This document shows, in pieces, positions 1 to 15,305 of a stretch of DNA of 64,000 nucleotides (position 1 is the stretch's first letter; each line of letters opens with the position of its first letter). The position numbers and the translations under genes were made by a program. The notes beneath the pieces were generated by a model. That model made no database searches and was not told the origin of the DNA. It worked only from the letters and a program-made list of their open reading frames with translations. The stretch comes from Gloeocapsopsis dulcis (lineage in GTDB: Bacteria > Cyanobacteriota > Cyanobacteriia > Cyanobacteriales > Chroococcidiopsidaceae): assembly GCF_032163395.1 (NCBI RefSeq), contig NZ_CP119968.1, positions 3,250,001 through 3,314,000 on the forward strand. The letters are read 5' to 3'.

Positions 1-845
1 GATAGCAATACTAATGGATATAAAATAATTGCTTGACGAAGTTTTTGATATGCTTGCTTAGCTCCAGTATTACCAGGAATATAACTCAAGCATAAGTGAG
101 CTAAAAACTCATATATATTAGCTAAACTCTGATTCTTCAGAAACTGAAGTTCTGGAGAAGCCAGGCGAAATCCACGCTCGTGAACAATCAAAAGATGTTT
201 CTCCATGACTTCAACTTTAGATGACATAGCTGTAGTAGATTGGCGGTAGATAATTTGATATTTAGGTACGACAGCGAAAGCACATTTAGCAGCTAAACGC
301 AGCCAATAATCCCAATCTTCGCAAGAGCGTAATGTTGGATCGAAGTATCCTACCGATGCGATCGCCTGTTTACGAATCATTACATTAGAGCCACTTGCAA
401 TAAAATTCTTTAACAACAATTGAGGTAGAATGTTACCTTGAAAATAAATCGGCTCACTTTGATGAAAAGATGTACCTGCTTCGTTTAAAAATAACGTCCA
501 ACTATACACCACGTCAGCTTCTGGATGTTGCTGTAAAGCAGCTAACTGCAACTCTAATTTGTCAGAAGTCCACAAATCGTCAGCATCAATAAATGTAATA
601 AATTCTCCTATTGCATTGGCTATTCCACGATTTCTGGCTACAGGTAAGCCACCATTTTCATAGGAAATCACTTTCATCCGTGGTTCGCAGATTTGTGCGA
701 GCAGTTCTAATGTACAGTCGGTTGAACCATCATCAATAACAATCAACTCAAAATGAAAAAAGGTTTGTTTCTGAATTGATTCAATTGTTGCTAATATAGT
801 TTTTTCACCATTGTACACAGGAACAATTATAGATATTTTAGGCAT
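1..845 (-). CDS. Family 2 glycosyltransferase (3' end outside window)
   Basis: The frame is open from an ATG at 845 to the window edge, giving about 281 residues without a stop. The N-terminus (MPKISIIVPVYNGEKT) is the nucleotide-binding start of GT-A family 2 enzymes. An Asp-rich motif, DADD at residues 87-90, would hold the metal and sugar nucleotide. Such enzymes add single sugars from nucleotide sugars to a growing lipid-linked or surface glycan on the cytoplasmic side of the membrane. The next gene downstream on this strand's upstream side (954-1982) is a relative with the same start and motif layout, 108 bases away and co-oriented, so the two probably belong to one polysaccharide operon. 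Donor and acceptor cannot be read from sequence. Confidence 0.88.
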   Translation of the reverse strand, partial: MPKISIIVPVYNGEKTILATIESIQKQTFFHFELIVIDDGSTDCTLELLAQICEPRMKVISYENGGLPVARNRGIANAIGEFITFIDADDLWTSDKLELQLAALQQHPEADVVYSWTLFLNEAGTSFHQSEPIYFQGNILPQLLLKNFIASGSNVMIRKQAIASVGYFDPTLRSCEDWDYWLRLAAKCAFAVVPKYQIIYRQSTTAMSSKVEVMEKHLLIVHERGFRLASPELQFLKNQSLANIYEFLAHLCLSYIPGNTGAKQAYQKLRQAIILYPLVLL

Positions 846-953
846 AAAATTAGTTTTTTAGAGTTCAGACTTATTCATAATAGTTAAGGATTTGCGTATA
901 AACATAGATGGATACAGAGTCTGCAATATCAAATGGTATTAAAATCATCTAAA

Positions 954-1982
954 CTAAAGACTTGCTTGCTTAATCAAGTAACGCTTCTGGCTAATCTCTG
1001 TCACTTTTAAAGCTATAGCTTCTATTTGGTTATAAAAAACTTGTGGGAGCAGTAAAAGAAAATAAGCAGCTATCCATGTCAGCAGTGTCCGACGTGGCTC
1101 CTCAAGTAAAATACGCCAGTAGGTAGTTACAGAGCGGTTTATTAGCTCTACTGCCATAGAAGGTGTTCGTAGTGTAACTGCTCTACGCGCCAAATAGCGT
1201 AATTGGTAAGCTTTAGCTGGTTTTTCCCACTGAGAAATTAGTTCTGGAGCAAAGGCACGTATCTTTTCAATCACTCTTTGCCAAGACTCAAACTGTTCTA
1301 CCCAATTTGCTGACAGTCCGTGGGAATTAATTCTGTATAATGTCAAAGCTTCTGAAATGCCTTCAAACTGCCAAGAGGTTTGAATTGCAATACGTACCCA
1401 ACACTCAATATCTTCTGAACGTCGGCAGTGAGGATCAAAATAACAACTTTCTACTAGAGCACCTTGCTGCTTAAAAAACTTGATTGCTTCAAACACTTGT
1501 TTTCGGATTACAGGCGCAGAACCATTTCCGATGGGATTACGACAAATAATATACGATGGCGTAATTCCTTGAAGCTTCTTAGGCATTTGATAAATACCTA
1601 TATTCTGCCCTTCTTCATCTATAAAGGCAGAGCAACTGAAGCTAACTCCAACCGAAGGAGAATGATCTAAATGGGTAACGTGTTTTTCTAACTTTTCTGG
1701 AAGCCACAAGTCATCTCCATCTAAAAAAGCAAGATATTCTCCTTGTGCATAACGAATACCAGTATTTCTTGCCCCAGCTAATCCGCGATTTTTTTGATGG
1801 ATAATCTTAATTCTAGAATCTGTAAACTGCTGGCAAATTTGTATACTCCGATCCAGAGATTCATCATCAATGATTAGGAGTTCAAAGTCTGAGTAAGTTT
1901 GTGCTAGCACTGAGCTTACTGTAGCAGTAATATACTTTTCAACATTGTAAACTGGAATAATAACTGAGACTTTCGGCGGCAT
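954..1982 (-). CDS. Family 2 glycosyltransferase
   Basis: A 342-residue GT-A glycosyltransferase starting at an ATG. It has the MPPKVSVIIPVYN start, the IIDDES loop near residue 40 and the DGDD motif at 88-91 that binds metal and nucleotide sugar. A hydrophobic stretch near residues 300-320 may anchor the protein at the membrane. It resembles its neighbour at 1-845, so the two probably act in sequence on one repeat unit. The STAS-sugar transferase at 2042-3037, which would start the glycan, lies just upstream with only 59 bases between. The sugar added cannot be predicted. Confidence 0.9.
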   Translation of the reverse strand: MPPKVSVIIPVYNVEKYITATVSSVLAQTYSDFELLIIDDESLDRSIQICQQFTDSRIKIIHQKNRGLAGARNTGIRYAQGEYLAFLDGDDLWLPEKLEKHVTHLDHSPSVGVSFSCSAFIDEEGQNIGIYQMPKKLQGITPSYIICRNPIGNGSAPVIRKQVFEAIKFFKQQGALVESCYFDPHCRRSEDIECWVRIAIQTSWQFEGISEALTLYRINSHGLSANWVEQFESWQRVIEKIRAFAPELISQWEKPAKAYQLRYLARRAVTLRTPSMAVELINRSVTTYWRILLEEPRRTLLTWIAAYFLLLLPQVFYNQIEAIALKVTEISQKRYLIKQASL

Positions 1983-2041
1983 AAAGATTGCTGAGGTGGT
2001 AATGTTTCATAGTTTGCGCGATCGCGTAAAGAAGTATTGCC

Positions 2042-3037
2042 TTATAGCGCGTTGCTTTTCTCTTGAAGAACAATCAATATTGTCTTGATAATTAGCTTAA
2101 TATCGTATGGAATACTCCAATTTCTTTGATAATCTAAATCTAGTTCTAATACCTTATTAAAATCACAAATTTCTGAACGACCATTGGTTTGCCATTGACC
2201 AGTAATACCTGGTTTAACGTTAAGCCGCTGCCACATCTGCAGAATATACTGCTCAACTTCGTCACAGGTAGGAGGTCGAGTTCCTACTAAACTCATATCT
2301 CCTTTAAGAACATTCCAAAACTGAGGTAGCTCATCTAAGCTTGTTCGCCTCAAAAAAGAACCAAATTGCGTAATCCGTGGATCGCTTTTACTTTTAAAGA
2401 ATGGTCCTTTTACTTGATTATCAACTTGCTCCTTCAATGCTTCAGCATTGACAACCATCGAACGAAATTTCCATATCCGAAAGCGTTTTCCTAGCAAACC
2501 ACAGCGTATTTGACTAAAAAAAACTGGACCAGGACTATCGAGTTTAATTGCAATAGCAATAGGTATAAATAGAAGTGATGTCAGTCCTAAACCGATTAAT
2601 GATCCTATAATATCTATGGCTCTTTTAATTCTAGAATTAACTGATAAATGCACTTTTGCATGCTGATTGTTTATTTTCTCATTATTGATTAAAGAAATAG
2701 CATCCGTCTCATCAAAAATCAATAATGGTTCAATTCCAGCATTAACTAATACTCCTTTAATACGCGAACTAATACTCCAAACTATTACATTAACACCTTG
2801 TTTTTCAGTTTTCTTTAAAAACTGAATCAGTACTCCTATACCGCTACTATCAATAAAGGTAGTCTGGCTAAAATCAAGAATTATGCATTCTGGCTTTTGT
2901 AGTAAAAGGTATTGTGAAGTTTCTTCTAAATCTAGAGATTCAACCAAATTCAAGTTAATAGGTAGTTGAATTAAAGGAACTTTATTTAAAACTGTGATCT
3001 TTAAATTTTTACTTGCACAAGGCATTTCTAAAACCAT
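2042..3037 (-). CDS. STAS domain fused to polyprenyl-phosphate sugar-phosphate transferase
   Basis: A 331-residue protein with two parts. Residues about 12-115 look like a STAS (anti-sigma-factor antagonist) domain: ILDFSQTTFIDSSGIGVL carries the D-S-S-G turn whose serine (64/65) is phosphorylated in SpoIIAA/RsbV proteins. Residues about 135-331 are a bacterial sugar transferase (WcaJ/ExoY/PglC type). That part has an RIKRAIDI start, a membrane segment at 140-166, KFRSM at 190-194, the catalytic-type Asp-Glu pair at 235-236 and GTRP at 252-255. Family members transfer a sugar phosphate to undecaprenyl phosphate, the first committed step of exopolysaccharide or O-unit assembly. The ATG at 3037 has a good ribosome site (AAGGGAG). 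The fusion suggests that priming is controlled by serine phosphorylation or a STAS partner; this is inference. Confidence 0.88.
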   Translation of the reverse strand: MVLEMPCASKNLKITVLNKVPLIQLPINLNLVESLDLEETSQYLLLQKPECIILDFSQTTFIDSSGIGVLIQFLKKTEKQGVNVIVWSISSRIKGVLVNAGIEPLLIFDETDAISLINNEKINNQHAKVHLSVNSRIKRAIDIIGSLIGLGLTSLLFIPIAIAIKLDSPGPVFFSQIRCGLLGKRFRIWKFRSMVVNAEALKEQVDNQVKGPFFKSKSDPRITQFGSFLRRTSLDELPQFWNVLKGDMSLVGTRPPTCDEVEQYILQMWQRLNVKPGITGQWQTNGRSEICDFNKVLELDLDYQRNWSIPYDIKLIIKTILIVLQEKSNAL

Positions 3038-3111
3038 ATAAGCTCCCTTGAATACTGAGAAATAATATTAATCAACTACTTCTTAGAAAAATGAAAATAT
3101 ACTATTTTCTA

Positions 3112-3576
3112 TTATTTAAAGCGGTTATGTAGCTGCTGACAAACACTTGTAGCCGAAATGAGCGTTGTAGGAACTAGTCGTGGCAAAGCTAAAAATCTTA
3201 CTAAATCACCTGGAGACCAAGCAATAGGAACATCTAATTGAGCAAGAGCTTCTGCTAGTTCAACTTGATGATTATCAATGTGTTCTTTATACTTTTGGCT
3301 CCGAGGTACTAAGATATAAGGCTTAGCAGTAGCTGCTAAGAGAAGAATAGTACCTTCTCCACAATGTCCTATAACTATGCGGGCTTGTTTAATGACTGAA
3401 TGAAACTGTTCTGGTGGAAGTACAGAATAAGAGTTAACTCCAGTAGGAATATTAGTAGAGCTACCGTATTGAACTACAACTTCTTCAGCAATAAAGCCAC
3501 GCTTAATTAAGACTTGAATCCATGTCATTAGTCGATTAAAGGGGAACTGTTCAGTACCAACAGTAACGAAAATCAT
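3112..3576 (-). CDS. Alg13/PssE-like glycosyltransferase subunit (donor-binding half)
   Basis: A 154-residue protein resembling the C-terminal half of GT family 28 enzymes. It has MIFVTVGTEQFPFNRL at the start, VIGHCGEGTILL around residues 85-95 and the PRSQKYKEHIDNHQ nucleotide-sugar segment near 100-115. In Alg13 and PssE this half binds the donor and works only with an Alg14/PssD partner, which is encoded immediately upstream. I chose the ATG at 3576 because family members begin exactly at this MIFVTVG. An in-frame TTG at 3606 would add ten residues and make the gene overlap its partner by 4 bases. The likely product is the second sugar on the lipid carrier after the STAS-transferase encoded next. 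Confidence 0.85.
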   Translation of the reverse strand: MIFVTVGTEQFPFNRLMTWIQVLIKRGFIAEEVVVQYGSSTNIPTGVNSYSVLPPEQFHSVIKQARIVIGHCGEGTILLLAATAKPYILVPRSQKYKEHIDNHQVELAEALAQLDVPIAWSPGDLVRFLALPRLVPTTLISATSVCQQLHNRFK

Positions 3577-3602
3577 AGTAGATGTTAAAGGGGGAAATTT
3601 AC

Positions 3603-4046
3603 TCAAGAATCAATTATTTTCGCTCTTGGGTAACGTGCTTGTAGTTGCGGCCAATGTACATATAAAGTATCTAGAAATGGTAAAGCTAGCCTGGCAGACA
3701 AGCTTAACTGCTTTACGCGTGTAATAGACTCGATAAAAATTGTTTGACGACCTAACAGCTTTGCCAAAATTAAAAAAGGTACTGCTACTCCTGCACCTGT
3801 AGAAATAACTAAATGCGGTGTCTCTTGGGAAAGAATTTGCCAAGCTAAGAAGAAGTTACGTACCAAATTTACGAGATTGCGATTTGTAGGGCTCCAAGCC
3901 CAATACACTCTTTCTGTATCTAAAGTTGTTTTGGTATTCTCACTATAAAAAGTAACCCAGATACGCTGGTGGTTTCTCCAAAAAGGATGTAAGCTTTGCA
4001 TTGCCTGAAAATGCCCTCCAGTAGAGCAAACGAGTATAACTTTCAT
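3603..4046 (-). CDS. Alg14/PssD-like glycosyltransferase subunit (membrane/acceptor half)
   Basis: A 147-residue protein with the Alg14/PssD signature: MKVILVCSTGGHFQAM at the start and LVISTGAGVAVPFLILAKLLG near residues 80-105. In eukaryotes and in rhizobial and streptococcal polysaccharide loci this protein recruits the catalytic Alg13/PssE partner to the membrane and helps bind the acceptor. It ends 26 bases before the ATG of its partner at 3576, so the pair is almost certainly co-transcribed. It appears to be the first gene of the minus-strand polysaccharide operon, because the next 1.5 kb upstream holds no gene. Sugar specificity (GlcNAc or GlcA in known pairs) is not readable. Confidence 0.85.
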   Translation of the reverse strand: MKVILVCSTGGHFQAMQSLHPFWRNHQRIWVTFYSENTKTTLDTERVYWAWSPTNRNLVNLVRNFFLAWQILSQETPHLVISTGAGVAVPFLILAKLLGRQTIFIESITRVKQLSLSARLALPFLDTLYVHWPQLQARYPRAKIIDS

Positions 4047-5532
4047 TGTTTGCTACCCAGACAAGGTGCTTATGAATATAGTATTGAACTACAAAACTGA
4101 ATTTCAGGTGTTGTTATGAGTATGATAGATTCACTACAGCTTACTCAATAAACATTACTTAATTCACATTTATATGTTCTAGTGACAGTAAATAAATGTC
4201 TATACAGAGAAGTTAAGAGGTTTATTTTTTTAACTACTGAACTTAAGGCGTACTTTGTCCTACAAAAAATTAAAATGAATATATTTAAATTACTCTTAAT
4301 ATTCTTTGTGCTGCTCTACTCAGCAGAGTAAGCTCTCTTGAGTTACATTTTTTAAACTAACATCGTAAGCTTGAAGAAGTTTTGTTTTTTGTATAAAGGT
4401 ATTTTTTTGTTATGTATTAAACTTGCTACATACACTTTAGATGTAGGCAATATTTCAAGTTATGCAATTTACTCAGTAGAGTTTTTGGTGAGAAACTGAA
4501 TATATAGGTATTGAATATTTGACCAAAGAACGTACGAAGCAAGTAATCCAAATGACAATAGTAAAATAGTTATCTGGTATACTAAAATTTAAATTTATAC
4601 TTAACTTATGTATCAAACTCTGCAGGTAGACTCTTTTAACAACAAGCTCTTAATTCAATATAGTAAAGTCTTTGAAGTAGCCAACTGCATATCATTCTTA
4701 TATAAGCCATCTATAGTATTATTATCAAGTTATAATAATACTATAGATTTTGTGAGTATCAGCTCTTTATTACTCTAAGTCAGAAATATTAATGACTTAA
4801 TTAATCTTTATTAACTCTCTAGAAAAGTTTTCTAGATAACATACTTAGAAAAGCAGTACAACTTAATGTAGTACTTATCGACTTTCCTCAAGAACTAGTT
4901 TGGTGAAAAACAATCTATGGAATCTCTAATCCAAGTATCTACATTGCTAAGCAGGATTCTTTTAGGACTTTTCTATCATAAATTCTTGCTTAATAATCTG
5001 ATTCAAACATAGTGTGTTTCTGTTTACTGCGTACAACGTACTGTGATTTAGATCACTGACATTAGGTACCAATTAACTTAGGAGTTAGTGTAGTGGTGAG
5101 TGAGCTAAGAGTAGTAATCGTAGGATTATATAAACGTATTCCTTTAAGTTTTTCTTTCCATTTTAGTAAGGTAAAATTGGTGACTTAGCTGAAGTTATCG
5201 GTAAGCTTCAGCTATTGTAGGGATGTAATATATTAGCTTGAGAAGGATGGATTCTATAGCATCGCTTAGCTGAGTACCATATTTTGTGGATCTGATAGAT
5301 GTAAGAAGTAGGGCTGTAGTAAAACTATTTTCTTCTAAACCTCCTAAAACCTATGAAACCACTACCTTTAAAAATAATTGAATTCTCACCTGGGAAGATA
5401 TTGGTAATATCTTATTACTGCACTTCAATCAGTCAGTATCTTCAACATTAGACTACCACTGTAGAAAAGCTATGGATGTACAGTAAATTAGTTAGCTTTC
5501 ATGGATAACTGCTAGCCATTTACATCAAAGCT
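4047..5532. other. Gene-free AT-rich interval, 1.5 kb
   Basis: No open frame of gene length is present on either strand and stops are dense in all frames. I see no tRNA-like, CRISPR or transposon ends. The interval lies between the 5' end of the minus-strand polysaccharide operon and the 3' end of the gene at 5533. It must hold that operon's promoter; otherwise it looks like decayed DNA. Confidence 0.6.
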
Positions 5533-5922
5533 TTACTCTCTAGAATAGGTTTGTAATCCTAACAAGACTAAATGAGTCAGCATTTCTATCTGCGATCGCT
5601 GGCTTGATGCTGCAAGCTGATCTACTTGCTCAATAGGTATCTGTTGTTGTAGTAATGCCAAAGACTGCTCTAATTCTTGAGCTAACGTGCGGTTGCTACT
5701 ACGAGCATTTTCTCGCACTTGTTGACCGATGGGTGATAAAAGCAGAAAGCTTAACAAGCTAGAGATAAAGCCAGAGCGAGAATTGCGTTCGCGCTGGGCT
5801 TGGATCTGAATAGCTCTTAGCAATTCTTCTGACATATAAAAGGTTGGACGGCTTGTTGCATCGGGATTGTGTCGCCCGTAACCATTAGTTCTAGCTTTAT
5901 CTTCTGAGTGTGAATGATACAT
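5533..5922 (-). CDS. Small ribbon-helix-helix-like protein, function unknown
   Basis: A 129-residue protein from the ATG at 5922; an in-frame GTG at 5943 would add seven residues. The centre, RPTFYMSEELLRAIQIQAQ followed by SRSGFISSLL, has the strand-helix-helix spacing of CopG/Arc DNA-binding proteins. The C-terminal half is Gln- and Leu-rich helix (LAQELEQSLALLQQQ). It could be a repressor, perhaps for the neighbouring polysaccharide genes or for itself, but no operator was recognised and no toxin partner lies next to it. The family assignment rests on pattern only. Confidence 0.6.
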   Translation of the reverse strand: MYHSHSEDKARTNGYGRHNPDATSRPTFYMSEELLRAIQIQAQRERNSRSGFISSLLSFLLLSPIGQQVRENARSSNRTLAQELEQSLALLQQQIPIEQVDQLAASSQRSQIEMLTHLVLLGLQTYSRE

Positions 5923-5943
5923 CGAGCTTTTTTTTGTAAACAC

Positions 5944-6394
5944 TTATCTTTTTTATGTATCAATTTTATAAATATGGCTAGTCAATAAAGTTCTGGAAAT
6001 CAAGTTAATAAGCTCTGCTCATCAGATATAAAAATCCTCAAATTCAGAATAAAACTAAAAGTTATGGTTAATTAATTGAATATTTTTTCATTAATCAGAC
6101 TTATAAACTCTGTAAAATAGGAGTTTTTTTATGAACTTTAACTTAATAATAGATTAAGTATTTTCAAATGAACGGTTTTATTCTATTATTGTTTACTAAA
6201 GTACGATTTAAGGTTGTGATTGTGCTTCATTATTGAGTCTTAATATTATGTTAACAAAGCAAAGGAATTTCCTAATTATAAATAATCTAATTCCTGCAGG
6301 ACTCTAAATTTACTGGGCTAAAGAATTTAGGGGATTTGGGTAGAAGCTTTGTTTTTGAGTATGGCAGCTAATTTTAAGTAGGTAGAGGTAAAAG
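5944..6394. other. Intergenic region upstream of the STAND gene
   Basis: About 450 bases of very AT-rich DNA between two divergently transcribed genes (minus-strand gene at 5533, plus-strand STAND gene at 6395). It must carry both promoters. I could not pick a convincing -35/-10 pair or a dyad operator by eye. GTAGAGGTAAAAG just before 6395 is a plausible ribosome site. Confidence 0.4.
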
Positions 6395-9300
6395 ATGAAC
6401 TATTCAGAATCTGACTTGGACTTAGGTAATAAAGAAGAATTTAAAGCTGCAGATAATGCTGTTTTTGCTACACAAGGAAGTTATTTAACAGACATACAAA
6501 AAATTATTCTTAAGGGCGCGTGGTTAGGTTATACCTATGAAGAAATTGCTGACAAAGAAGGATACAGCGATAATTACTTAAAACGAGACGTCGGACCTAG
6601 ATTATGGAAAATACTTTCGGATGCTTTAGGAGAAAAAGTTAGTAAAAAGAACTTTCGTACTGCATTGCAACGAAAACTAGAAGAAGTAAGATCATCACCA
6701 CCTCAAGAAAAAAAAATTACAGGTACTCAGCGAGATTGGGGAGAAGCAGCAGATGTGACAATGTTCTATGGTCGTGTCCAAGAGATATCTGCATTAGAAC
6801 AGTGGGTTGTCAGCGATCGCTGTCGTGTAGTCACCATTTTGGGTAGGGGAGGTATTGGCAAAACAGCCTTGTCGGTTAAATTAGCCCAGCAGGTACAAGA
6901 TAATTTTGAGTATGTTATTTGGCGATCCCTACACCATGCTCCGCCGATTAAAGATATCTTGGCAGAACTAATCTATTTTCTTTCGCAAAATAAAGAAACT
7001 GATTTGCCAGAAAATATTAGTTTACGTGTTCTACGACTACTGGATTACTTACGCAAACATCGCTGTCTGCTTGTGCTTGATGGTTTTGATACTGTTCTAC
7101 ATAACAGTAATAATAAAGAATTTCACCGAGAATACGAAGGTTACTTGCAGTTGGTTGGGTGTATAGGAGAAACATTGCATCAAAGTTGTTTGCTATTAAC
7201 TAGTCGAGAGAAGCCCAGAGATTTCTTCCTAAAAGAAGGCACACAACGCTTAAAAACATTACAGTTAGGTGGCTTAAATCTAGAAGAAGGAGAGCAAATT
7301 ATTAAATCTAGCCAATTGCATGGAACGGAGGCAAGCTTTGAAAAAATTATGAAAATTTATGGAGGTAATCCTCTGCTATTAAAGATGGTTGCCCCCATCA
7401 TTCAAGATGTTTTTGATGGTAATGTTACAGATTTCGTAAATTCAGGCAAAACAGTCTTTAGCAATATTAAAAATCTATTCGACCAAGATTTTGAGCGTCT
7501 ATCACGGATGGAGCAAGATATTATGTACTGGTTGGCAATCAACCGCGAACCAGTTTCATTACGGGAACTCAGCGAAGATCTTCTCCAAGAAGTACACCCC
7601 CTAGAATTAGCCGAAGCTCTAGAATCCCTGCGACAACGTGCGCTGCTTGAAAAAGCTTCAGGGCTATTTACGCAGCAACCCGCGTTCGCCGAGTATACAA
7701 CTGATCGTTTTATCAAGCAAATATGCTTTGAGTTGAACACACAACAATTAGTACTTTTTAGGAGCCACGCTTTAGTAAAAGCTCAGGGCAAAGAGTATCT
7801 TAGAAATGCTCAAACTCGCTACATTCTGCAACCTATAATTAATCAGCTTTTTGCTGATAGCGGAAGCCGCAAGAGTATTACTAATCACCTCCACAAAATT
7901 ATTAAAAACTTGCAAGAGCGATCGCCGCTACAACCAGGTTATACCAGTGGCAATATTCTTAATCTTCTCTGCCATATGCAAGTTAACCTAAACGGATATG
8001 ACTTGTCTCACTTAAAAATATGGCAAGCCTGTCTTGACGTCAATTTACATCAGGTGAACTTAGCGTACTCGGATTTAGATAAATCGGTCTTCTTGGCAAA
8101 TTTTGGTAGTATCCTAGCAATCGAATTTAGTTCTAATGGACAATTTTTGACTGCGGTTGACACGAGTGGTGCAACATATATCTGGCACGTTCCTGAAATG
8201 AAGCTACGACACTTGAGTAAGGGATACAATACATGGTTGCGCGTCGCTACTTTAAGTCCAGATGGGCAGACGCTTGTTTGTGCGAGCGATCGCACGGTGA
8301 AGCTAGGCGATGTGAGTACAGGTCAATGTCTTAAATCCTTGCGTGGACATATTAATTCAGTCTGTGCAGTCGCGGTTAGTCCTGATAGTCAAGTACTTGC
8401 GAGTGCAAGTTATGACGGCATCGTTAAATTATGGTTTGCGGATACTGGAGAATCTTTAGCTACACTGCACGGAGACACTGACCATATAACATCATTAGCA
8501 TTTAGTCCTAACGGTGAACTTCTAATTAGTGGTAGCAGCACCGGAACAATTGAGTTGTGGTCCGTTAGCTCACAAAAACGGCTCACAACCTTACAACAGC
8601 ATACCAGCGAAATTCAATCGGTGGCGTTTAGTCCCGACGGTCAAACTCTTGCAAGTAGTAGTAGCGATCACACGATTAAATTATGGTCGGTAAGTACGTG
8701 TGAATGTCTAAAGACACTACAAAACCATACCAGCGAAATTCAATCGGTGGCGTTTAGTCCCGACGGTCAAACTCTTGCAAGTAGTAGCGATCGCACGATT
8801 AAATTATGGTCGGTAAGTACGGGTGAATGTGTCACAACATTTAAAGGACACACTGGTCAAGTACGCACAGTCACCTTTAATCCTGACGGTCAAACCCTTG
8901 CAAGTAGTAGTAATGACCAAATTATCAAAATATGGAAGGTTAGCACTGGTCAATGCATTAGAACTTTACGCGCCTATACAAATTGGGCTGCATCCCTTGC
9001 TTTTAGTTCTGATGGGCTAATGGCAAGTGGTAGCAATGATACAACTATCAGATTGTGGAACCCTGAAAATGGAGAAAATATCAGGAGCTTGCAAGGTCAT
9101 ACTAGCCGAGTACAGTCGGTTACTTTCAGTCCAGATAATCTAACTTTAGTGAGTGCTAGTAACGATCAAACACTAAAACTATGGTCAGTTAGTACAGGTG
9201 AATGTTTAATAACCTTACACGGACACCAAGATCAAGTCCGTTCTGTAGCGTTTCATCCCGATGGTTCAACAATTATTAGTGGTAGTGACGACCGCACCGT

Positions 9301-9946
9301 AAAGCTATGGGATGTCACAACAGGAGAATGCTTGAGTACAATGCAACATCCCAGCCAGGTACGTACAGTTGCGGTAAGTTTAAATGGTCAGATAATTATT
9401 AGTGGTAGTAACGATCGCACTGTAAGACTTTGGGATTTCTCTACTAAACAATGCTACAAAATCCTCCGCGGACATACAAGTTGCATCAAGTCTGTTGCCT
9501 TAAGTCCCGATGGTCAATTCTTGGCGAGCGGCAGTGAGGATGGTATGGTTAAGCTTTGGGATCTCAGTACAGGTCAATGCTTGCAGTCGCTTTTAGCAGA
9601 TCCGAGTACGATATGGGCAGTTGTATTTAGTCCTGATGGTCAAATGTTAGCAACGAATGGCGATCGCTGTAGTGTTAAATTATGGGACGTCACAACGGGT
9701 GAATGTCTACAATCGCTGCAAGGTCACAAAAGTTGGGTGAGGGCGATCGCTTTTAGTCCTGATGGTCAAGTGGTGAGTAGTAGTCAAGACGAAACAATTA
9801 AGTTTTGGCACATCAAGACCGGAGAATGTCAGAAAACATTAAGAACTGCTAGACCTTACGAAAGTATGAATATTGCTGATATCGAAGGTTTAAGTGATGC
9901 TCAAAAAACTGCTTTAAGAGCATTAGGAGCCGTTGAGTTGTCCTAG
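6395..9946 (+). CDS. STAND NTPase: vMAP-type HTH, NB-ARC domain and 14 WD40 repeats
   Basis: A 1183-residue protein. Residues about 31-97 match the helix-turn-helix domain at the N-terminus of vWA-MoxR-associated proteins (LTDIQKIILKGAWLGYTYEE ... LKRDVGPRLW). An NB-ARC NTPase follows: P-loop GRGGIGKT at 150-157, Walker B LLVLDGFD at 225-232, LLLTSREKP at about 267-275 and GGNPLLLKM near 325. A winged-helix stretch follows, then 14 WD40 units from about residue 560 to 1150, enough for two seven-bladed propellers. STAND proteins are switches that oligomerise on NTP binding when the repeat domain senses a ligand. No enzymatic effector domain is visible, so the HTH is the likely output. The setting among polysaccharide genes suggests a regulator; a conflict or defence sensor is the alternative. 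HIP1 sites are present, so the gene is not freshly acquired. Confidence 0.9.
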   Translation: MNYSESDLDLGNKEEFKAADNAVFATQGSYLTDIQKIILKGAWLGYTYEEIADKEGYSDNYLKRDVGPRLWKILSDALGEKVSKKNFRTALQRKLEEVRSSPPQEKKITGTQRDWGEAADVTMFYGRVQEISALEQWVVSDRCRVVTILGRGGIGKTALSVKLAQQVQDNFEYVIWRSLHHAPPIKDILAELIYFLSQNKETDLPENISLRVLRLLDYLRKHRCLLVLDGFDTVLHNSNNKEFHREYEGYLQLVGCIGETLHQSCLLLTSREKPRDFFLKEGTQRLKTLQLGGLNLEEGEQIIKSSQLHGTEASFEKIMKIYGGNPLLLKMVAPIIQDVFDGNVTDFVNSGKTVFSNIKNLFDQDFERLSRMEQDIMYWLAINREPVSLRELSEDLLQEVHPLELAEALESLRQRALLEKASGLFTQQPAFAEYTTDRFIKQICFELNTQQLVLFRSHALVKAQGKEYLRNAQTRYILQPIINQLFADSGSRKSITNHLHKIIKNLQERSPLQPGYTSGNILNLLCHMQVNLNGYDLSHLKIWQACLDVNLHQVNLAYSDLDKSVFLANFGSILAIEFSSNGQFLTAVDTSGATYIWHVPEMKLRHLSKGYNTWLRVATLSPDGQTLVCASDRTVKLGDVSTGQCLKSLRGHINSVCAVAVSPDSQVLASASYDGIVKLWFADTGESLATLHGDTDHITSLAFSPNGELLISGSSTGTIELWSVSSQKRLTTLQQHTSEIQSVAFSPDGQTLASSSSDHTIKLWSVSTCECLKTLQNHTSEIQSVAFSPDGQTLASSSDRTIKLWSVSTGECVTTFKGHTGQVRTVTFNPDGQTLASSSNDQIIKIWKVSTGQCIRTLRAYTNWAASLAFSSDGLMASGSNDTTIRLWNPENGENIRSLQGHTSRVQSVTFSPDNLTLVSASNDQTLKLWSVSTGECLITLHGHQDQVRSVAFHPDGSTIISGSDDRTVKLWDVTTGECLSTMQHPSQVRTVAVSLNGQIIISGSNDRTVRLWDFSTKQCYKILRGHTSCIKSVALSPDGQFLASGSEDGMVKLWDLSTGQCLQSLLADPSTIWAVVFSPDGQMLATNGDRCSVKLWDVTTGECLQSLQGHKSWVRAIAFSPDGQVVSSSQDETIKFWHIKTGECQKTLRTARPYESMNIADIEGLSDAQKTALRALGAVELS

Positions 9947-10041
9947 AAATTAGCATAAAACTAACTTTCCACTATCCAATCATAAGGAACAGCATGAGTT
10001 ATTCTCAGCAAGCCATCGTCACCTTCAACCTACATCTTTCT

Positions 10042-10105
10042 CCCAAATTTGGGTAAGGGATTTTGAAAACAAGCACCCCTTCTTTTAATCTTAAGAGAAG
10101 GGGTG
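10042..10105. terminator. Convergent-gene hairpins
   Basis: Between the stop of the STAND gene and the stop of the minus-strand glycosyltransferase lie a perfect palindrome CCCAAATTTGGG (10042-10053) and a 10-bp perfect stem, CACCCCTTCT (10074-10083) with AGAAGGGGTG (10096-10105). There is no clean T tract on either side, so a bidirectional terminator is likely but not proven. Confidence 0.5.
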
Positions 10106-10130
10106 AAGGATGAGGCTATTCTAGTTAAAC

Positions 10131-11405
10131 TTACCTTACTTGCGATGATTGCAGTGAAGGTAAATAATTGCCTAAGCGTGAAAAAACTTCTTGTTTAACG
10201 TATTTCATTAAACCGGTTCTATAGCTAACTACATCTTCATCTACTTCTTGTAATCTTTCTGTTGTAAACTGTAGAACTTGCTCTGCTCTGTTATCCCAAG
10301 TAAAATTTTGCACCTCTTGAAAAGCACATTCAGCAATAGTATTAGCTAGCACAGGATTTTCAAATAATTTCAATATAGCTTTTTTAAAGGAATCAGGATC
10401 ATCTGGCTCTGCTAAAAGAGCATTCTGTTTATCTCTTGCTACTGTCATTATTGTTGGTAATGCTGAAGCTACAATTGGTCTTCGAGAAACCATATAGTCA
10501 AACAGCTTAAGCGGACAAGTGGCTCCAGCTAAATCCCAGTACTTACTTGTAGGAAGGATTAATACATCTGCTGCATATAAGTAAGAAGCTAATTCTGTCT
10601 GATTGACATGACCAACAAGTGTTATATTGCTTAACCCAATTTTTCGGGAAGCTTCTTGTACTTTCTGAATATCATCAGCCCATCCTCCTACAAGTACAAA
10701 TTTATAATCTGGAAGAAGACGAGCAGTTTCTAAAATTGTTGGAATACCTTTATACTCATACAAATGTCCTGAGTACAAAACTATTTTATCTTCTTGGCAA
10801 ATAGATAATTTTCTGCGGGCTAATTGTTTATCTTGATAGGGTAGAAAATTTTTAAGATCAACTGCATTAGGTGCAACTAGTATTCTGTCCCTCAGTAATC
10901 CATTGTAAATATAATTTTCAGCCAAATGAGGCAAGGTAGTCACAATACCAAGCAAATTTTTATTATTCAAAATTGCCTGATAAAAAGAACTTGATGTTTC
11001 TGGTATCGGTTCATGCCATTCCCATAAAACAGGTACACCAATTTTTAGCAGAAGATCAGCAATAGCAGGAGTACGAGTGTACACAACAGAAGGAGACTTT
11101 AAACAAGCATATAAAATAGCTATCTTATAGAAAGTTTGATTTTCATAATTGTGAGGAAAGGGGTACTTAATTTTGAGGTGAATTGGTAAGCGTATAAGCT
11201 TAAATTTATGATGCAAACCATACCAAGCTTGAAAATCTGAACTCATGCCTTGAATAGCTGATAAAATATCTCCAGAAGTAACTAACTCAAAATTCTTAAG
11301 TTTTTGAGAGAAGGCTTGAGCCATTTTAGCTATCTGTATTGTATGAGCCATTTTTGAAGGCAAATTACCTTTTGTTAAATAAATCAAATTATTTAATGTT
11401 TTCAT
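10131..11405 (-). CDS. Family 4 (GT-B) glycosyltransferase, paralogue A
   Basis: A 424-residue GT-B enzyme. The ATG at 11405 is chosen because a ribosome site (AGGA) lies directly upstream and because the paralogue at 12342 aligns from this point (YLTKGNLPS against YISEGNLPS). A GTG at 11483 would add 26 unlikely residues. The C-terminal donor domain has LYSGHLYEYKGIPTILETA, VGGWADD, LVGHV and the PLKLFDYMVSRRPIVAS element, which contacts the nucleotide sugar. It probably transfers a hexose in polysaccharide assembly. The gene is convergent with the STAND gene and divergent from its paralogue. It lies in the HIP1-free AT-rich segment. Confidence 0.88.
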   Translation of the reverse strand: MKTLNNLIYLTKGNLPSKMAHTIQIAKMAQAFSQKLKNFELVTSGDILSAIQGMSSDFQAWYGLHHKFKLIRLPIHLKIKYPFPHNYENQTFYKIAILYACLKSPSVVYTRTPAIADLLLKIGVPVLWEWHEPIPETSSSFYQAILNNKNLLGIVTTLPHLAENYIYNGLLRDRILVAPNAVDLKNFLPYQDKQLARRKLSICQEDKIVLYSGHLYEYKGIPTILETARLLPDYKFVLVGGWADDIQKVQEASRKIGLSNITLVGHVNQTELASYLYAADVLILPTSKYWDLAGATCPLKLFDYMVSRRPIVASALPTIMTVARDKQNALLAEPDDPDSFKKAILKLFENPVLANTIAECAFQEVQNFTWDNRAEQVLQFTTERLQEVDEDVVSYRTGLMKYVKQEVFSRLGNYLPSLQSSQVR

Positions 11406-11848
11406 TTTTCCTGTACATTCAAGTATTATTGATGGTTTATTAAAAAGCAGAGAATAAATTAAGACTTGTCCAAAAGTAGGCACTTAATATTTTATTAAAA
11501 TTTTATTTCTTATAATTATATAAAAGTTCAGTGTTTTACCTACTCTATAAATCTGTTATTTTCTTTAAAATTAAATTGTTTGTTTAAGCTTAGCATATAA
11601 TTTTAAACGGTTCTTTCCCTTCATAGCAAATGCAACAATTAAATACAGTTATTTTTTACTACTCTTTTACTTCATCAGAATTGGTTAACATACTTTACGA
11701 GTTAAACCAGTATGTCTGAAAAACTAAGTTTCATATGGATAATTTAGTTCTGTAATCCTCCTAAACAAATCTATCTTTTCTGTATAGACAAACCTTTATA
11801 GCTAGTAGAATATAGAAGTATTTTAATAACACCTAAGGAAGTAACTCA

Positions 11849-12284
11849 ACTCTAAGCTAAAGTAGTGGTAATTGCTGCTCATAGTGCTAGTCTTACAAAT
11901 ATAATATTTGCCCAAAGTTTAATTGCTATTAAACCTTTTGTTTCAATAAGCGTTTTTTTTATTAGCGCAGGCATTAGATTTTCAACATGGATATTTAGTA
12001 TCAGAACTAGATACAGAAAATCAGTAAAATGAGAATTTTAAAGATATAGTAATCAAGGCTGATAAAATACAGTGACTAGTATTAAAAATGCTACAAGCAG
12101 ATTAAAGCTTGATAGCTAGCCTAACACCTGTTGATAAAACTACCTAGTAATTACGGACGCACTCTTGCGCACAAAATAAACTACTGAAGTTTTATATATT
12201 GACCCTCATGAACTTTTAGTAGAGCATAGCAATAAGTCAATATTGGCTAAAGTAGGTGTTACTAATACTTTGATGTTTAACTGA
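11849..12284 (+). pseudogene. Decayed coding remnant between two glycosyltransferases
   Basis: The plus strand shows protein-like pieces broken by frame changes and stops. One is an AKVVVIAAHSASL-like stretch from about 11856. Others are an AQALDFQHGYLVSELDTENQ-like piece near 11965 and LIASLTPVDKTT near 12115. An open piece at 12180-12281 reads VLYIDPHELLVEHSNKSI and ends in TGA at 12282. The pieces keep one strand and order, as expected of a dead gene of about 140 codons or more. I cannot name the family. It lies directly upstream of the glycosyltransferase at 12342, so it was probably part of the same cluster. Chance open pieces in AT-rich DNA are the alternative. Confidence 0.4.
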
Positions 12285-12341
12285 TTGGCTACAAGCCTCA
12301 TTGAAAATAAAAAGACTCGGCTAGATTATTCGGAGATAGCT

Positions 12342-13562
12342 TTGAAAATAATCTACATTTCTGAAGGCAACTTACCTTCTCAAGAAGCAAATTCTATACA
12401 AGTTGCCAAAATGGCTCAAGCTTTTGCTCAAAAGGTTGAAGAATTTGAACTCGTTACTCTAGGTGATTTATGGTCTTTTGTAAGAAATTATAAGTTTGAT
12501 TTTCAGAATTGGTATGGACTAACCCGAGAATATAAAATTACCCAACTACCTTTACTTTGTAAAACTACTTATCCTTTTCCTCGAAAATATCGCAATAAGT
12601 TTCGCAGTCAACATTTCTCGCGCTGGGCAGCTTTTTATGCTGGCATGAAATCTCCTGATTTAGTATATACTAGGTCAAAACAAGCAGCAAAAATTGCACT
12701 AAAGTTAGGTTTAAATGTTTTGTACGAATGGCATTTACCTGTTGAGAAGGGCTTTTTCCCAAAACAAATTACTAAACACAATTTTTTAGGTATTGTAACT
12801 ATCTCCCAACAATTAGCAAGTGAATATGTCACAGCAGGTCTTCCTGTAGACAAGGTACTAGTTGAGCATGATGGCGTCAATTTAGAACACTTTCTTCCCT
12901 ATCAAACCAAGGAAGAAGCTCGGCAAAAATTAAATCTTCCTTTGAGTACACCAATAGTAGTATATGCAGGTCACTTATATGACTTTAAAGGAATACCAAC
13001 TATTTATCAGGTAGCTCAATTAATACCAAATTGCTTATTTCTGTTAGTAGGAGGCTGGAAAGAGGATATCGAACAAGCTCGACAAGTGTGTCAACGTGAT
13101 GGTCTTGTGAATGTAAAAATTGTTGGACACATACCTCAAACTCAAGTACCCACATATTTGTATGCAAGTGATGTTCTTATCTTACCGAATAGTGGCAACC
13201 ACATTTGGTCAGCGACAACTTCTCCGCTAAAACTATTTGAATATATGGCAACACATCGACCAATAGTTGCTTCTGCTTTACCCAATATTACTACTGTTCT
13301 ACAACATAAGAAAAATGCCCTCTTAGCCAAACCAGACTGTCCTAAATCATTCAAGCAAGCAATAGAAGAATTGCTCATCAGTCCTCAAATAGGAAAAGCA
13401 CTTGCAGAACAAGCTTTTCAAGATGTCCAGTACTACACCTGGGAACATCGAGCTGAACGTATTCTTCAGTTTCTCACAAATAAACTTCAAGAAGCCGATT
13501 ACGTTCCCCAATCTAAATTTTATCTTCAAGTTTTGAAGACATTAGCTAGTAAAACTGGCTAA
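12342..13562 (+). CDS. Family 4 (GT-B) glycosyltransferase, paralogue B
   Basis: A 406-residue relative of the gene at 10131: same GNLPS start, AKMAQAF, WYGL, YPFP, YEWH, and the donor-site run LYDFKGIPT, VGGWKED and PLKLFEYMATHRPIVAS. An in-frame stop at 12282 bars a longer start. I prefer the TTG at 12342 because GGAG at 12332-12335 is correctly spaced and the paralogue starts here; a TTG at 12285 would add 19 residues. The enzyme probably adds a sugar to the same polysaccharide as its neighbours. The two paralogues face away from each other across a decayed gene, which points to duplication followed by rearrangement. Confidence 0.87.
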   Translation: MKIIYISEGNLPSQEANSIQVAKMAQAFAQKVEEFELVTLGDLWSFVRNYKFDFQNWYGLTREYKITQLPLLCKTTYPFPRKYRNKFRSQHFSRWAAFYAGMKSPDLVYTRSKQAAKIALKLGLNVLYEWHLPVEKGFFPKQITKHNFLGIVTISQQLASEYVTAGLPVDKVLVEHDGVNLEHFLPYQTKEEARQKLNLPLSTPIVVYAGHLYDFKGIPTIYQVAQLIPNCLFLLVGGWKEDIEQARQVCQRDGLVNVKIVGHIPQTQVPTYLYASDVLILPNSGNHIWSATTSPLKLFEYMATHRPIVASALPNITTVLQHKKNALLAKPDCPKSFKQAIEELLISPQIGKALAEQAFQDVQYYTWEHRAERILQFLTNKLQEADYVPQSKFYLQVLKTLASKTG

Positions 13563-13664
13563 TGACTACTGAAATACTATATTTTAATTAGATTGCTCTG
13601 ATGTTTTTATAAGTTAAATAAGAAGCTGATTTTCACATCAAAACATTAAACCAGGAATTAATAT

Positions 13665-14351
13665 ATGCTAAAAAAAATACATAAAAAATTTTATAATTCT
13701 GTTAACTATGCTTCTAAACAAATATCTCGAAAAGGTATTTACAGCTTTCTAGAGAATGAGTTTACTCAAATTCAAGCAAAAGAAAAAGTTCTGAATGTTG
13801 GTGCGGGAGGCGACATTGGTCTTCTCATAAACGAATATGCACAAAAAAACGACTTTCAAGTAGTTTCTCTAGATATTGACGCGCAAACTAATCCAGATAT
13901 TGTAGGAGATATATGTACTTACAATTTTGGTGATAAAGATATTTTTGATTGTATTGTTGTTTGTGAAGTTCTTGAACATGTAAGCTTACCCCACTTAGCT
14001 ATTGAACAAATTTACACATTATTGAAACAAAATGGTAGACTTATTCTTACAGTTCCTTTTATTTTTCCTCTTCATTGTCGTCCCTACGACTATTATAGAT
14101 TTACAAAATATGGTCTAGCATTTTTGTTAAAAAAATTTAGATATTTAAATATTATCGAGAGAAACTCCTGGGCTGATGCTATTAATGTATTAATCCTTAG
14201 ATTGGTTAAAGAAAAGAGAAAAAAGACTATAATGATTGCACCATTTTTAATCACTTTTTCTTGTTTATTAATTCCTGTTAATTGGTTATTTGCAAAAATT
14301 ATTCCTACAGATTTTATTACAACAGGATACGTAGTAACAGCAAAAAAATAA
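13665..14351 (+). CDS. SAM-dependent class I methyltransferase
   Basis: A 228-residue protein. Motif I is VLNVGAGGDIGLLI (about residues 44-57). An acidic end of strand 2, VSLDID, is near residue 70, and VVCEVLEHV near 103 is the methyltransferase_11 signature, followed by GRLILTVPF. HCRPYDYYRFTKYGL after strand 5 is common in methyltransferases of polysaccharide clusters. It probably methylates a sugar or a lipid-linked intermediate. It is 18 bases from the sulfotransferase downstream, so both are probably tailoring enzymes of one transcript. The coding region is AT-rich and contains no HIP1 site. The C-terminus has a hydrophobic stretch near residues 190-210 that may touch the membrane. Confidence 0.83.
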   Translation: MLKKIHKKFYNSVNYASKQISRKGIYSFLENEFTQIQAKEKVLNVGAGGDIGLLINEYAQKNDFQVVSLDIDAQTNPDIVGDICTYNFGDKDIFDCIVVCEVLEHVSLPHLAIEQIYTLLKQNGRLILTVPFIFPLHCRPYDYYRFTKYGLAFLLKKFRYLNIIERNSWADAINVLILRLVKEKRKKTIMIAPFLITFSCLLIPVNWLFAKIIPTDFITTGYVVTAKK

Positions 14352-14369
14352 TTAATATATTAAACAAAT

Positions 14370-15305
14370 ATGAAATCTAAAATCAACTTGATTGATTGCC
14401 CTTTTTTTATTGTTTTTGAGCCAAGATCAGGCTCTACTTTGCTTGCCAACTTACTGGTGAAATCGGCAGATATAGCTTTGCCACCAGAAAGTAACTTTAT
14501 CAAGGTAATTCTGTCAAATTATCCCAAGAATTTAGTAGAAGACGAGCAAGATTTACAGATAATAACAAGTATATTATACAAGGATATAAAGTTTGAAGAT
14601 TGGAATATTAATGTAGAGGAAATAACTAGGTTTGTTCAACCAAGCTTACCTATCAGTGTAAAAGATTTTATTTTAACCATATGTACAATTTATAAGAACA
14701 AGAATTTTCCAACAGCAAAAATATTTGGATTAAAGCATACTTACTATTTAATAGAATCTGAAAAGATAAAATTGATGTTTCCAAGTTCTAAATTTATTGG
14801 GCTTGTAAGGGACGGAAGAGCCGTTTTTAACTCTAAAAAGAATAGTATATATTCGGTTACTGGTCAACCATTTGAAACCAATCCTTATAGAGCAGCGAAG
14901 CAATGGTGTAAAACCCTAAACCTCCTAAAAAAACTCAGTACAAAGTATCCAAAAGACACATTTACTTTATATTACGAAGAATTAATAAATTCACCTGATG
15001 AAACCGTTAGATTACTATGTATTTTTTTAGGCGTTGCATATAGAGGTAATAATTTAGATAGAAAATATACAGTTCCTAGAAGATATGGTAATTTGCATAA
15101 AAATATTTATAAAGAAGCAATGCCTGACCGAATAGAAGTATGGAGAAGTTCTTTATCAGCTAATGAAATATATGCATTTGAATCAATTGCATATAAATAT
15201 CTAATTTTAGCAGGCTATGAATTAATTAATAATTATTTCATCCTTAAAATGAAGCGTATTAAAGAAATTTTACAACTACCTTTTAAATACCTATTGAGCA
15301 GCTAA
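14370..15305 (+). CDS. PAPS-dependent sulfotransferase
   Basis: A 311-residue protein. The 5'-phosphosulfate-binding loop FEPRSGSTLLANLL lies at residues 17-30 and the 3'-phosphate motif LVRDGRAVFNS at 145-155. A downstream YYEELINSPDETVRLLCIFLG segment and the KYTVPRRYG region correspond to the usual sulfotransferase helices. The enzyme would transfer sulfate from PAPS to a hydroxyl, most plausibly of a sugar in the exopolysaccharide encoded around it. It follows the methyltransferase by 18 bases. The gene is among the most AT-rich in the window, unlike the housekeeping genes from 15659 on. The substrate could also be a lipid or a peptide; the neighbourhood argues for glycan. Confidence 0.85.
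   Translation: MKSKINLIDCPFFIVFEPRSGSTLLANLLVKSADIALPPESNFIKVILSNYPKNLVEDEQDLQIITSILYKDIKFEDWNINVEEITRFVQPSLPISVKDFILTICTIYKNKNFPTAKIFGLKHTYYLIESEKIKLMFPSSKFIGLVRDGRAVFNSKKNSIYSVTGQPFETNPYRAAKQWCKTLNLLKKLSTKYPKDTFTLYYEELINSPDETVRLLCIFLGVAYRGNNLDRKYTVPRRYGNLHKNIYKEAMPDRIEVWRSSLSANEIYAFESIAYKYLILAGYELINNYFILKMKRIKEILQLPFKYLLSS

Follow-up and report, generated by a model that had tools for sequence, protein, structure and literature searches.

An RHH-paired NB-ARC–WD40 STAND protein in a probable sulfated-polysaccharide locus of Gloeocapsopsis dulcis

A 64,000-nucleotide stretch of the cyanobacterium Gloeocapsopsis dulcis, referred to as the window (C1:3250001–3314000 in a 3-contig assembly of 5,618,434 bases), carries a 1183-residue STAND NTPase that is divergently oriented to a small ribbon-helix-helix (RHH)-like gene and lies among genes for polysaccharide synthesis. 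Judged from sequence, the system is an RHH-paired NB-ARC–WD40 STAND in a probable sulfated-polysaccharide locus, and it differs from XssQ, the STAND activator of the synechan genes on plasmid pSYSM of Synechocystis 6803 (PMC8205485). A first-pass annotation had proposed the protein, by analogy with XssQ, as a candidate switch of a different sulfated glycan. That the two proteins form a regulatory pair controlling the adjacent glycan genes, in parallel to XssQ, is the reading to which we incline, with a confidence just short of even.

A STAND protein paired with an RHH-like gene

Genes were called from open reading frames (ORFs) and a Pfam profile search, and some families were also checked with NCBIfam. 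In window positions, the pair comprises the following features.

5533–5943, minus strand: 136-aa RHH-like protein, divergent to the STAND (PF01402, E 0.0031, 17.9 bits, cut-off 20.5)
5944–6394, no strand: intergenic region common to the RHH-like gene and the STAND, a divergent promoter region (conserved blocks in six genomes)
5988–5999, plus strand: repeat 1, AAGTTCTGGAAA (motif search of the intergenic region)
6010–6021, plus strand: repeat 2, at 22-bp spacing from repeat 1, with one mismatch to AARYTCTGNWAA (motif search; spacing control)
6105–6116, plus strand: repeat 3, AAACTCTGTAAA (motif search of the intergenic region)
6395–9946, plus strand: STAND, 1183 aa, with a helix-turn-helix (HTH)-like part (~31–99), NB-ARC (~124–303), a linker, WD40 (~571–1150) and a C-terminal tail (Pfam, alignment, model)

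The RHH-like gene is present, as one copy each, in 10 of 40 genomes searched (that of the window included), and in all ten it is found upstream of, and divergent to, a STAND belonging to the window clade, one such STAND being decayed. Because the STAND, the 136-aa gene and the family 4 glycosyltransferase (GT4) gene at 10131 are likewise grouped in five related genomes, the arrangement cannot be put down to a single assembly. An even draw of 386 cyanobacterial genomes contained the RHH-like gene only in the window genome, in G001 (genomes and sequence stretches are designated by G and L numbers) and as one marginal match (E 9e-4, with stops); the gene therefore looks confined to the family of the window organism.

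The intergenic region, 423–605 bp long across the RHH-bearing genomes, contains forward repeats that fit AA[AG][CT]TCTG and have a putative operator role. Three or four are found per region in six syntenic genomes (0.08–0.16 expected per strand) and two in that of G006 copy A (0.21 expected), that is, in 7 of the 10 RHH-bearing regions; none precedes G006 copy B, where the STAND is present and the RHH-like gene absent. A repeat pair spaced by exactly 22 bp is seen in six of the ten (the window, G001, G002, G014, G010 and G006 copy A, not G004). Among 175 sequences scanned (4.88 million strand-bases, 774 single sites), all 29 exact 22-bp pairs fell into the RHH–STAND intergenic regions of six genomes, the 29 representing 8 distinct pairs because the same regions were counted several times. 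With one mismatch allowed, AARYTCTGNWAA gives 26 matches in the window against 18.55 expected, a number reached by 2 of 100 shuffles; three of the matches lie in the intergenic region. The location of the first repeats, about 45–90 bp upstream of the RHH-like gene start, suggests that the RHH-like protein may regulate its own gene through them. A single operator common to the pair and the glycan genes was rejected, AARYTCTGNWAA-type matches not being clustered before the polysaccharide genes.

The NTPase part of the STAND matches both NB-ARC and NACHT within residues ~124–303 (PF00931, 47.7 bits, cut-off 23.5), and key residues of its Walker A (LGRGGIGKT) and Walker B (LLVLDG) motifs are invariant across 21 aligned sequences. 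The C-terminal sensor part is made up of 12 WD40 stretches (Pfam) with a period of 42 residues. By these sequence features, the protein is classed as a STAND NTPase of the NB-ARC (AP-ATPase) type with a superstructure-forming WD40 sensor. Sequence profiles place PH0952 (E 3.6e-6) and two plant NLRs nearest among solved structures; Foldseek, used with the moderate 480-aa model, adds Apaf-1 and other NLRs. PH0952 (PDB 6mfv) and Apaf-1 (1z6t) have the STAND/NB-ARC NTPase core in common with the window protein; PH0952 differs in having a TPR sensor, and the N-terminal domain of Apaf-1 is a CARD rather than an HTH.

The N-terminal HTH of the first-pass annotation stands in part: the helices predicted by the model (33–43, 48–55, 59–78 and 87–99) fit such a domain, whereas all Pfam matches are below threshold (best Sigma70_r4_2, E 0.069). 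An assignment from the best PDB profile match, 8vd6, was set aside as structural evidence; because 8vd6 is named in a protein-design paper (PMC12339374), the match shows an HTH-like consensus only. Identity to the G001 orthologue is highest in the HTH part (94%), followed by NB-ARC (91%) and WD40 (82%), and in Gloeocapsopsis crepidinum LEGE 06123 the N-terminal part is 91% identical. Since most Nostoc-type relatives in the alignment carry a Cro-type HTH (by eye) at the same position, the N-terminus looks like an exchangeable, putative DNA-binding module.

Polysaccharide genes around the STAND and its relatives

In a tree of 86 homologues, a family 2 glycosyltransferase (GT2), GT4 or priming transferase gene lies within 9 kb of 10 of the 11 members of the window clade, versus 6 of the 75 other homologues, many of which are mutual orthologues. 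An earlier tree of 77 tips lacked nine homologues, none with glycan genes, which had been removed by a 300-residue filter on the first matched stretch; the duplicates or fragments L086, L091 and L054 were excluded from both trees. Outside the G. dulcis genome, glycan genes were found by home-made GT2, GT4 and priming transferase profiles seeded from known proteins; a WztWzm profile matched general ABC ATPases and was excluded from the counts. The 40 control regions were drawn from the upper part of the homologue list, and some control loci end near the STAND at a contig end (e.g., L030, L031, L047, L115, L127, L133, L050), where neighbours can be hidden. Because six of the ten glycan-linked members share one inherited context, the independent evidence consists of three of four contexts: the six syntenic loci; G003, G009 and G013 (GT4, FkbM methyltransferase, GT2); and G006 copy B (GT2, GT61, and, by eye, an ABC exporter and nucleotide-sugar genes), but not G006 copy A.

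The G. dulcis genome itself encodes eight NB-ARC and two further NACHT genes above cut-off and yields 96 GT2/GT4 matches (one below cut-off). Around its ten STANDs, 15 GT2/GT4 genes lie at up to 10 kb, versus 3.6 in 5,000 rotations (P 0.006); at 20 kb, P is 0.003 with and 0.002 without the window. Three further long homologues of the window STAND (with matches that start at residue 11, 24 or 109 and run to 1181) and a fourth matched piecewise have at most one glycosyltransferase gene each within 20 kb. A STAND paralogue of the G. dulcis genome (L016 7733–11437) adjoins a cluster that by eye resembles a contractile injection (phage-tail-like) system (L016 647–7452). The link of the window STAND to polysaccharide genes is, on this comparative evidence, real but indirect. 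The occurrence of homologues away from polysaccharide genes, named in the first-pass annotation as a sign against its proposal, is thus a property of the wider STAND family and not of the window clade.

The genes that the annotation had listed, namely six glycosyltransferase-type genes, a STAS-linked priming transferase, a methyltransferase, a sulfotransferase and the STAND, are all recovered from the ORFs and Pfam; the 136-aa gene was not on that list. Besides the pair, the genes are:

3–845, minus strand: GT2, continuing past the left window end (Pfam PF10111/PF00535)
954–1982, minus strand: GT2 (PF00535, E 3.8e-40)
2042–3037, minus strand: fusion of STAS and polyprenyl-phosphate sugar (priming) transferase (PF01740 + PF02397; TIGR03025 286.8 bits, slightly below the cut-off of 295.55)
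3112–3606, minus strand: PssE-type half of a split glycosyltransferase (PF04101; NF041548 below cut-off)
3603–4046, minus strand: PssD-type half of the same split glycosyltransferase as 3112–3606 (PF08660; NF041549 above cut-off)
10131–11483, minus strand: GT4 (PF00534), retained next to the STAND in all five syntenic relatives
12285–13562, plus strand: GT4, paralogue of 10131–11483 (PF00534)
13665–14351, plus strand: methyltransferase (PF13489)
14370–15305, plus strand: sulfotransferase (Sulfotransfer_3; PF13469, E 8.4e-26)

STAND orthologues of about 80% identity or more are present in G001, G002, G004, G010 and G014. Most of the locus is retained at 70–93% in G004, G010 and G014; in G004 the window methyltransferase and sulfotransferase have no match, and the G014 stretch stops before the sulfotransferase position. 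G001 and G002, two relatives of the same genus, retain the STAND (86%), the RHH-like gene (88–89%), GT4 10131 (85–86%) and the right-hand flank (87–94%). PssD/PssE, the methyltransferase and the window sulfotransferase are unmatched in their stretches L085–L088, GT4 12285 gives only a weaker match to its paralogue, the match to the priming transferase spans the transferase part only, and the remaining polysaccharide genes are only 41–72% identical. Sulfotransferase domains above the Pfam cut-off occur in three proteins of G001, in one tested protein of G002 and in one of G014; G010 has a fragment where its stretch ends, and the match in G004 is marginal (22.7 versus 22 bits). All six syntenic loci (window included) thus carry sulfotransferase-domain genes, though not the same genes throughout, and the locus of the window is a probable sulfated-polysaccharide locus by its gene content.

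The suggestion that wzx, wzy or wza lie to the left of the window was right in part. The stretch L011, immediately to the left, contains a GT2, a GH5 protein, an ABC exporter, a type I phosphodiesterase-family protein, a polysaccharide co-polymerase (PCP)-like protein (GNVR), a Wzy_C protein, a methyltransferase and a GT4. Parts of a Wzy-dependent locus (Wzy, PCP, priming transferase) are hence present, with the ABC exporter in place of Wzx; no Wzx or OPX was recognised in L011, OPX having had no profile search and the ORFs of L011 and L012 having been only partly scanned. L012, further left, holds a chemotaxis-type cluster as judged by eye. The phosphodiesterase-family protein (PF01663, L011 13147–14868) is 70–89% identical across five syntenic relatives and is the best conserved left-hand polysaccharide gene in G001 and G002. 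Between the two GT4 genes of the window lie only ~800 bp (11484–12284), where G014, G010 and G004 have two additional genes (405/405/401 and 331/331/330 aa; L089 2088–4499, L093 2370–4757 and L092 5889–8291), as if these had been lost from the window. The priming transferase bears a DSSG motif in its N-terminal STAS domain, which, from its likeness to anti-sigma antagonists, may be phosphorylatable. The fusion was rejected as a novelty, as it is widespread in cyanobacteria: at least 58 of the matches listed (own included) begin at query residue 22 or earlier.

XssQ and other STAND lineages

For comparison, the sequences of XssQ (783 aa) and XssR were taken from Synechocystis 6803 pSYSM. Both XssQ and the window protein are STANDs with an N-terminal HTH-like part in polysaccharide clusters with sulfotransferases. 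XssQ consists of NACHT and NCH2, lacks WD40, shows a weak N-terminal Cro/C1-type HTH match and has XssR and XssS adjoining, whereas the window STAND lacks NCH2, carries WD40, matches NB-ARC as well as NACHT and has the RHH-like gene adjoining. BLASTP aligns the two at 24% identity over 189 NTPase columns only. An XssQ search of the G. dulcis genome gave two matches in total, none in the window; the best (C1:2455871–2458171, 41% over residues 1–777) lies 0.8 Mb from the window STAND. This XssQ-type gene (L099 9811–12171, 786 aa) is neighboured by two GT4, a Wzz/ParA-type PCP, a Wzy_C protein and two GT2; the window STAND hence represents a different lineage. XssQ-type STANDs beside polysaccharide loci have been reported in other cyanobacteria, with which the G. 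dulcis genome agrees (PMC8205485).

None of 93 XssR-like matches in the genome falls between C1:3230001 and 3314000; XssS had no search. Those nearest to the window STAND are in the chemotaxis-like cluster of L012 (by eye), and the best (C1:2405763, L100), a receiver domain only, is ~50 kb from the XssQ-type STAND. The XssQ site AAGTTNNAC, close pairs of which are present in xss DNA, is not enriched in 1–15305 (5 versus 4.07 expected from the whole window), where it forms no close tandem pair. Kinship with XssQ, as read from the analogy in the first-pass annotation, is therefore contradicted by domains, best match, XssR neighbourhood and site motif, and the window STAND was rejected as its orthologue. 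That it would nonetheless be orthologous to XssQ and act together with XssR/XssS on a second synechan-like glycan, as the shared HTH–STAND layout beside sulfotransferase-bearing polysaccharide genes might suggest, has a next to negligible probability.

A known relative is the WD40/NB-ARC protein WP_011153809.1 encoded on pSYSG of Synechocystis 6803 (34% over 1192 columns, nearly full length, with a similar C-terminal tail), which adjoins GNAT genes, not polysaccharide genes, and has no annotated RHH-like neighbour. NB-ARC or WD40 accessory domains are also carried by cyanobacterial sigma-70 homologues, where they are joined to sigma-region domains; the part consulted of this domain-content survey gives no regulon or glycan link (PMC11119718). 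The literature searched, which includes few subscription journals, names no NB-ARC–WD40 STAND as a polysaccharide regulator.

Two short STANDs of the G. dulcis genome (459 aa, HTH and NB-ARC without WD40; L017 7480–8859 and L019 6887–8266) lie beside priming, GT2, GT4 and PCP genes. Similar proteins of ~460 aa beside priming, PCP and glycosyltransferase genes are found elsewhere (L152–L158, L161, L163, L166). Of 16 short STANDs in 15 further regions, 11 are neighboured by one or more glycan genes; these regions cover part of the shorter STANDs listed and include orthologues of both G. dulcis proteins already known as linked. One clade (support 0.986) of 14 tips unites 12 short STANDs, 11 of them glycan-linked, with two long STANDs; a further two glycan-linked short STANDs (L160, L166) do not belong to this clade. 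This distribution suggests that HTH-STANDs of several lineages accompany polysaccharide loci, and as possible polysaccharide regulators the short HTH–NB-ARC proteins may be stronger candidates than the STAND of the window.

Proposed regulation, alternatives and significance

In the mechanism we propose, the STAND would act as an ATP-switched transcription regulator whose WD40 part senses a signal; nucleotide exchange would open the NB-ARC switch, upon which the HTH would bind DNA. The probable binding sites of the RHH-like protein are the repeats immediately before its gene, and it would control its own promoter, perhaps also that of the STAND. The STAND most likely adjusts the adjacent glycan genes (Wzy/PCP/ABC-exporter type, with a probably sulfated product), as XssQ does for synechan. 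The persistence of the STAND, the RHH-like gene and one GT4 in G001 and G002, where the polysaccharide genes diverge or go unmatched, is counted in favour of this regulatory role.

Several observations weigh against it. Both DNA-binding assignments rest on sub-threshold profile matches, and the structure models are of limited use: that of the 136-aa protein (AlphaFold, pLDDT 47.6) was unusable and its fold not used, and that of the STAND is moderate (pLDDT 61.6). In stretches L097, L098 and L112, the STANDs of G003 and G009 stop before the WD40 part, of which tblastn finds no remnant, and that of G013 is broken in several frames; the RHH-like gene is still present in all three. Forward repeats are absent from the intergenic regions of these same genomes, with a single reverse copy in G003 and G013, and no repeat array or cluster lies upstream of the polysaccharide genes in the window. 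Restoring the nine homologues lowers the clade support from 0.999 (77 tips) to 0.909 (86 tips), and the independent evidence comes to three of four contexts; for G006 copy A, which is RHH-paired, the surrounding 9 kb contain no GT2, GT4 or priming gene. The clustering in the G. dulcis genome likewise weakens at 10 kb without the window (P 0.037) and at 5 kb (P 0.056 with, 0.09 without the window).

Alternatively, the RHH–STAND pair may be self-contained, with mutual regulation or unlinked targets, and the polysaccharide locus a mere neighbour. The pair does occur without nearby glycan genes (G006 copy A), the 22-bp-spaced repeats lie only between the two genes in the sequences scanned, with none clustered before glycan genes, and the pair is retained while the neighbouring glycan genes turn over. 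Against it stand the glycan genes around 10 of the 11 members of the clade and in three of four contexts, versus 6 of 75 others, and we regard this alternative as doubtful, though of some substance. A role as an NLR-like conflict or defence sensor, with the WD40 part sensing invaders and the location incidental, is unlikely. The NB-ARC–WD40 architecture resembles Apaf-1-type proteins (moderate model), and PADLOC, run on three window proteins, gave for the STAND only weak partial matches, one to the candidate defence protein PDC-S27 confined to residues 124–166. The HTH-like N-terminus (weak match, predicted helices) points elsewhere, no toxic effector domain was matched in the protein, and the WD40 part, at 82% identity to the G001 orthologue, is not hypervariable between these two.

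Placement of the STAND in the locus by chance, with retention through synteny alone, seems improbable. With so many STAND genes and GT2/GT4 matches in one genome, a randomly chosen point has a 5% probability of at least three glycosyltransferase genes within 10 kb; however, the association recurs in separate contexts of the same clade, and the STAND is retained while glycan genes are exchanged. Control of the adjacent glycan genes by the RHH–STAND pair is the preferred, if tentative, reading. A broader proposal, possible but less than probable, is that cyanobacterial exopolysaccharide loci have repeatedly been wired to HTH-STAND switches in at least three lineages, namely XssQ (NACHT), the short HTH–NB-ARC proteins and the HTH–NB-ARC–WD40 protein of the window. 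The last, with an added RHH protein and an iteron-like operator, would constitute a two-protein switch, and STAND signalling would be a general control layer of slime and sheath production.

Gloeocapsopsis dulcis AAB1 is a cyanobacterium of the Atacama Desert (PMC10516996). If the regulatory reading is correct, it would probably concern this desert strain, in which a polysaccharide coat is thought to aid against drying. The unit is small and testable, comprising a 136-aa protein, 22-bp-spaced repeats and one STAND. It would add a second STAND lineage to XssQ, the sole STAND control of a sulfated bacterial polysaccharide in the literature searched, and would point to which other STANDs may control slime production.

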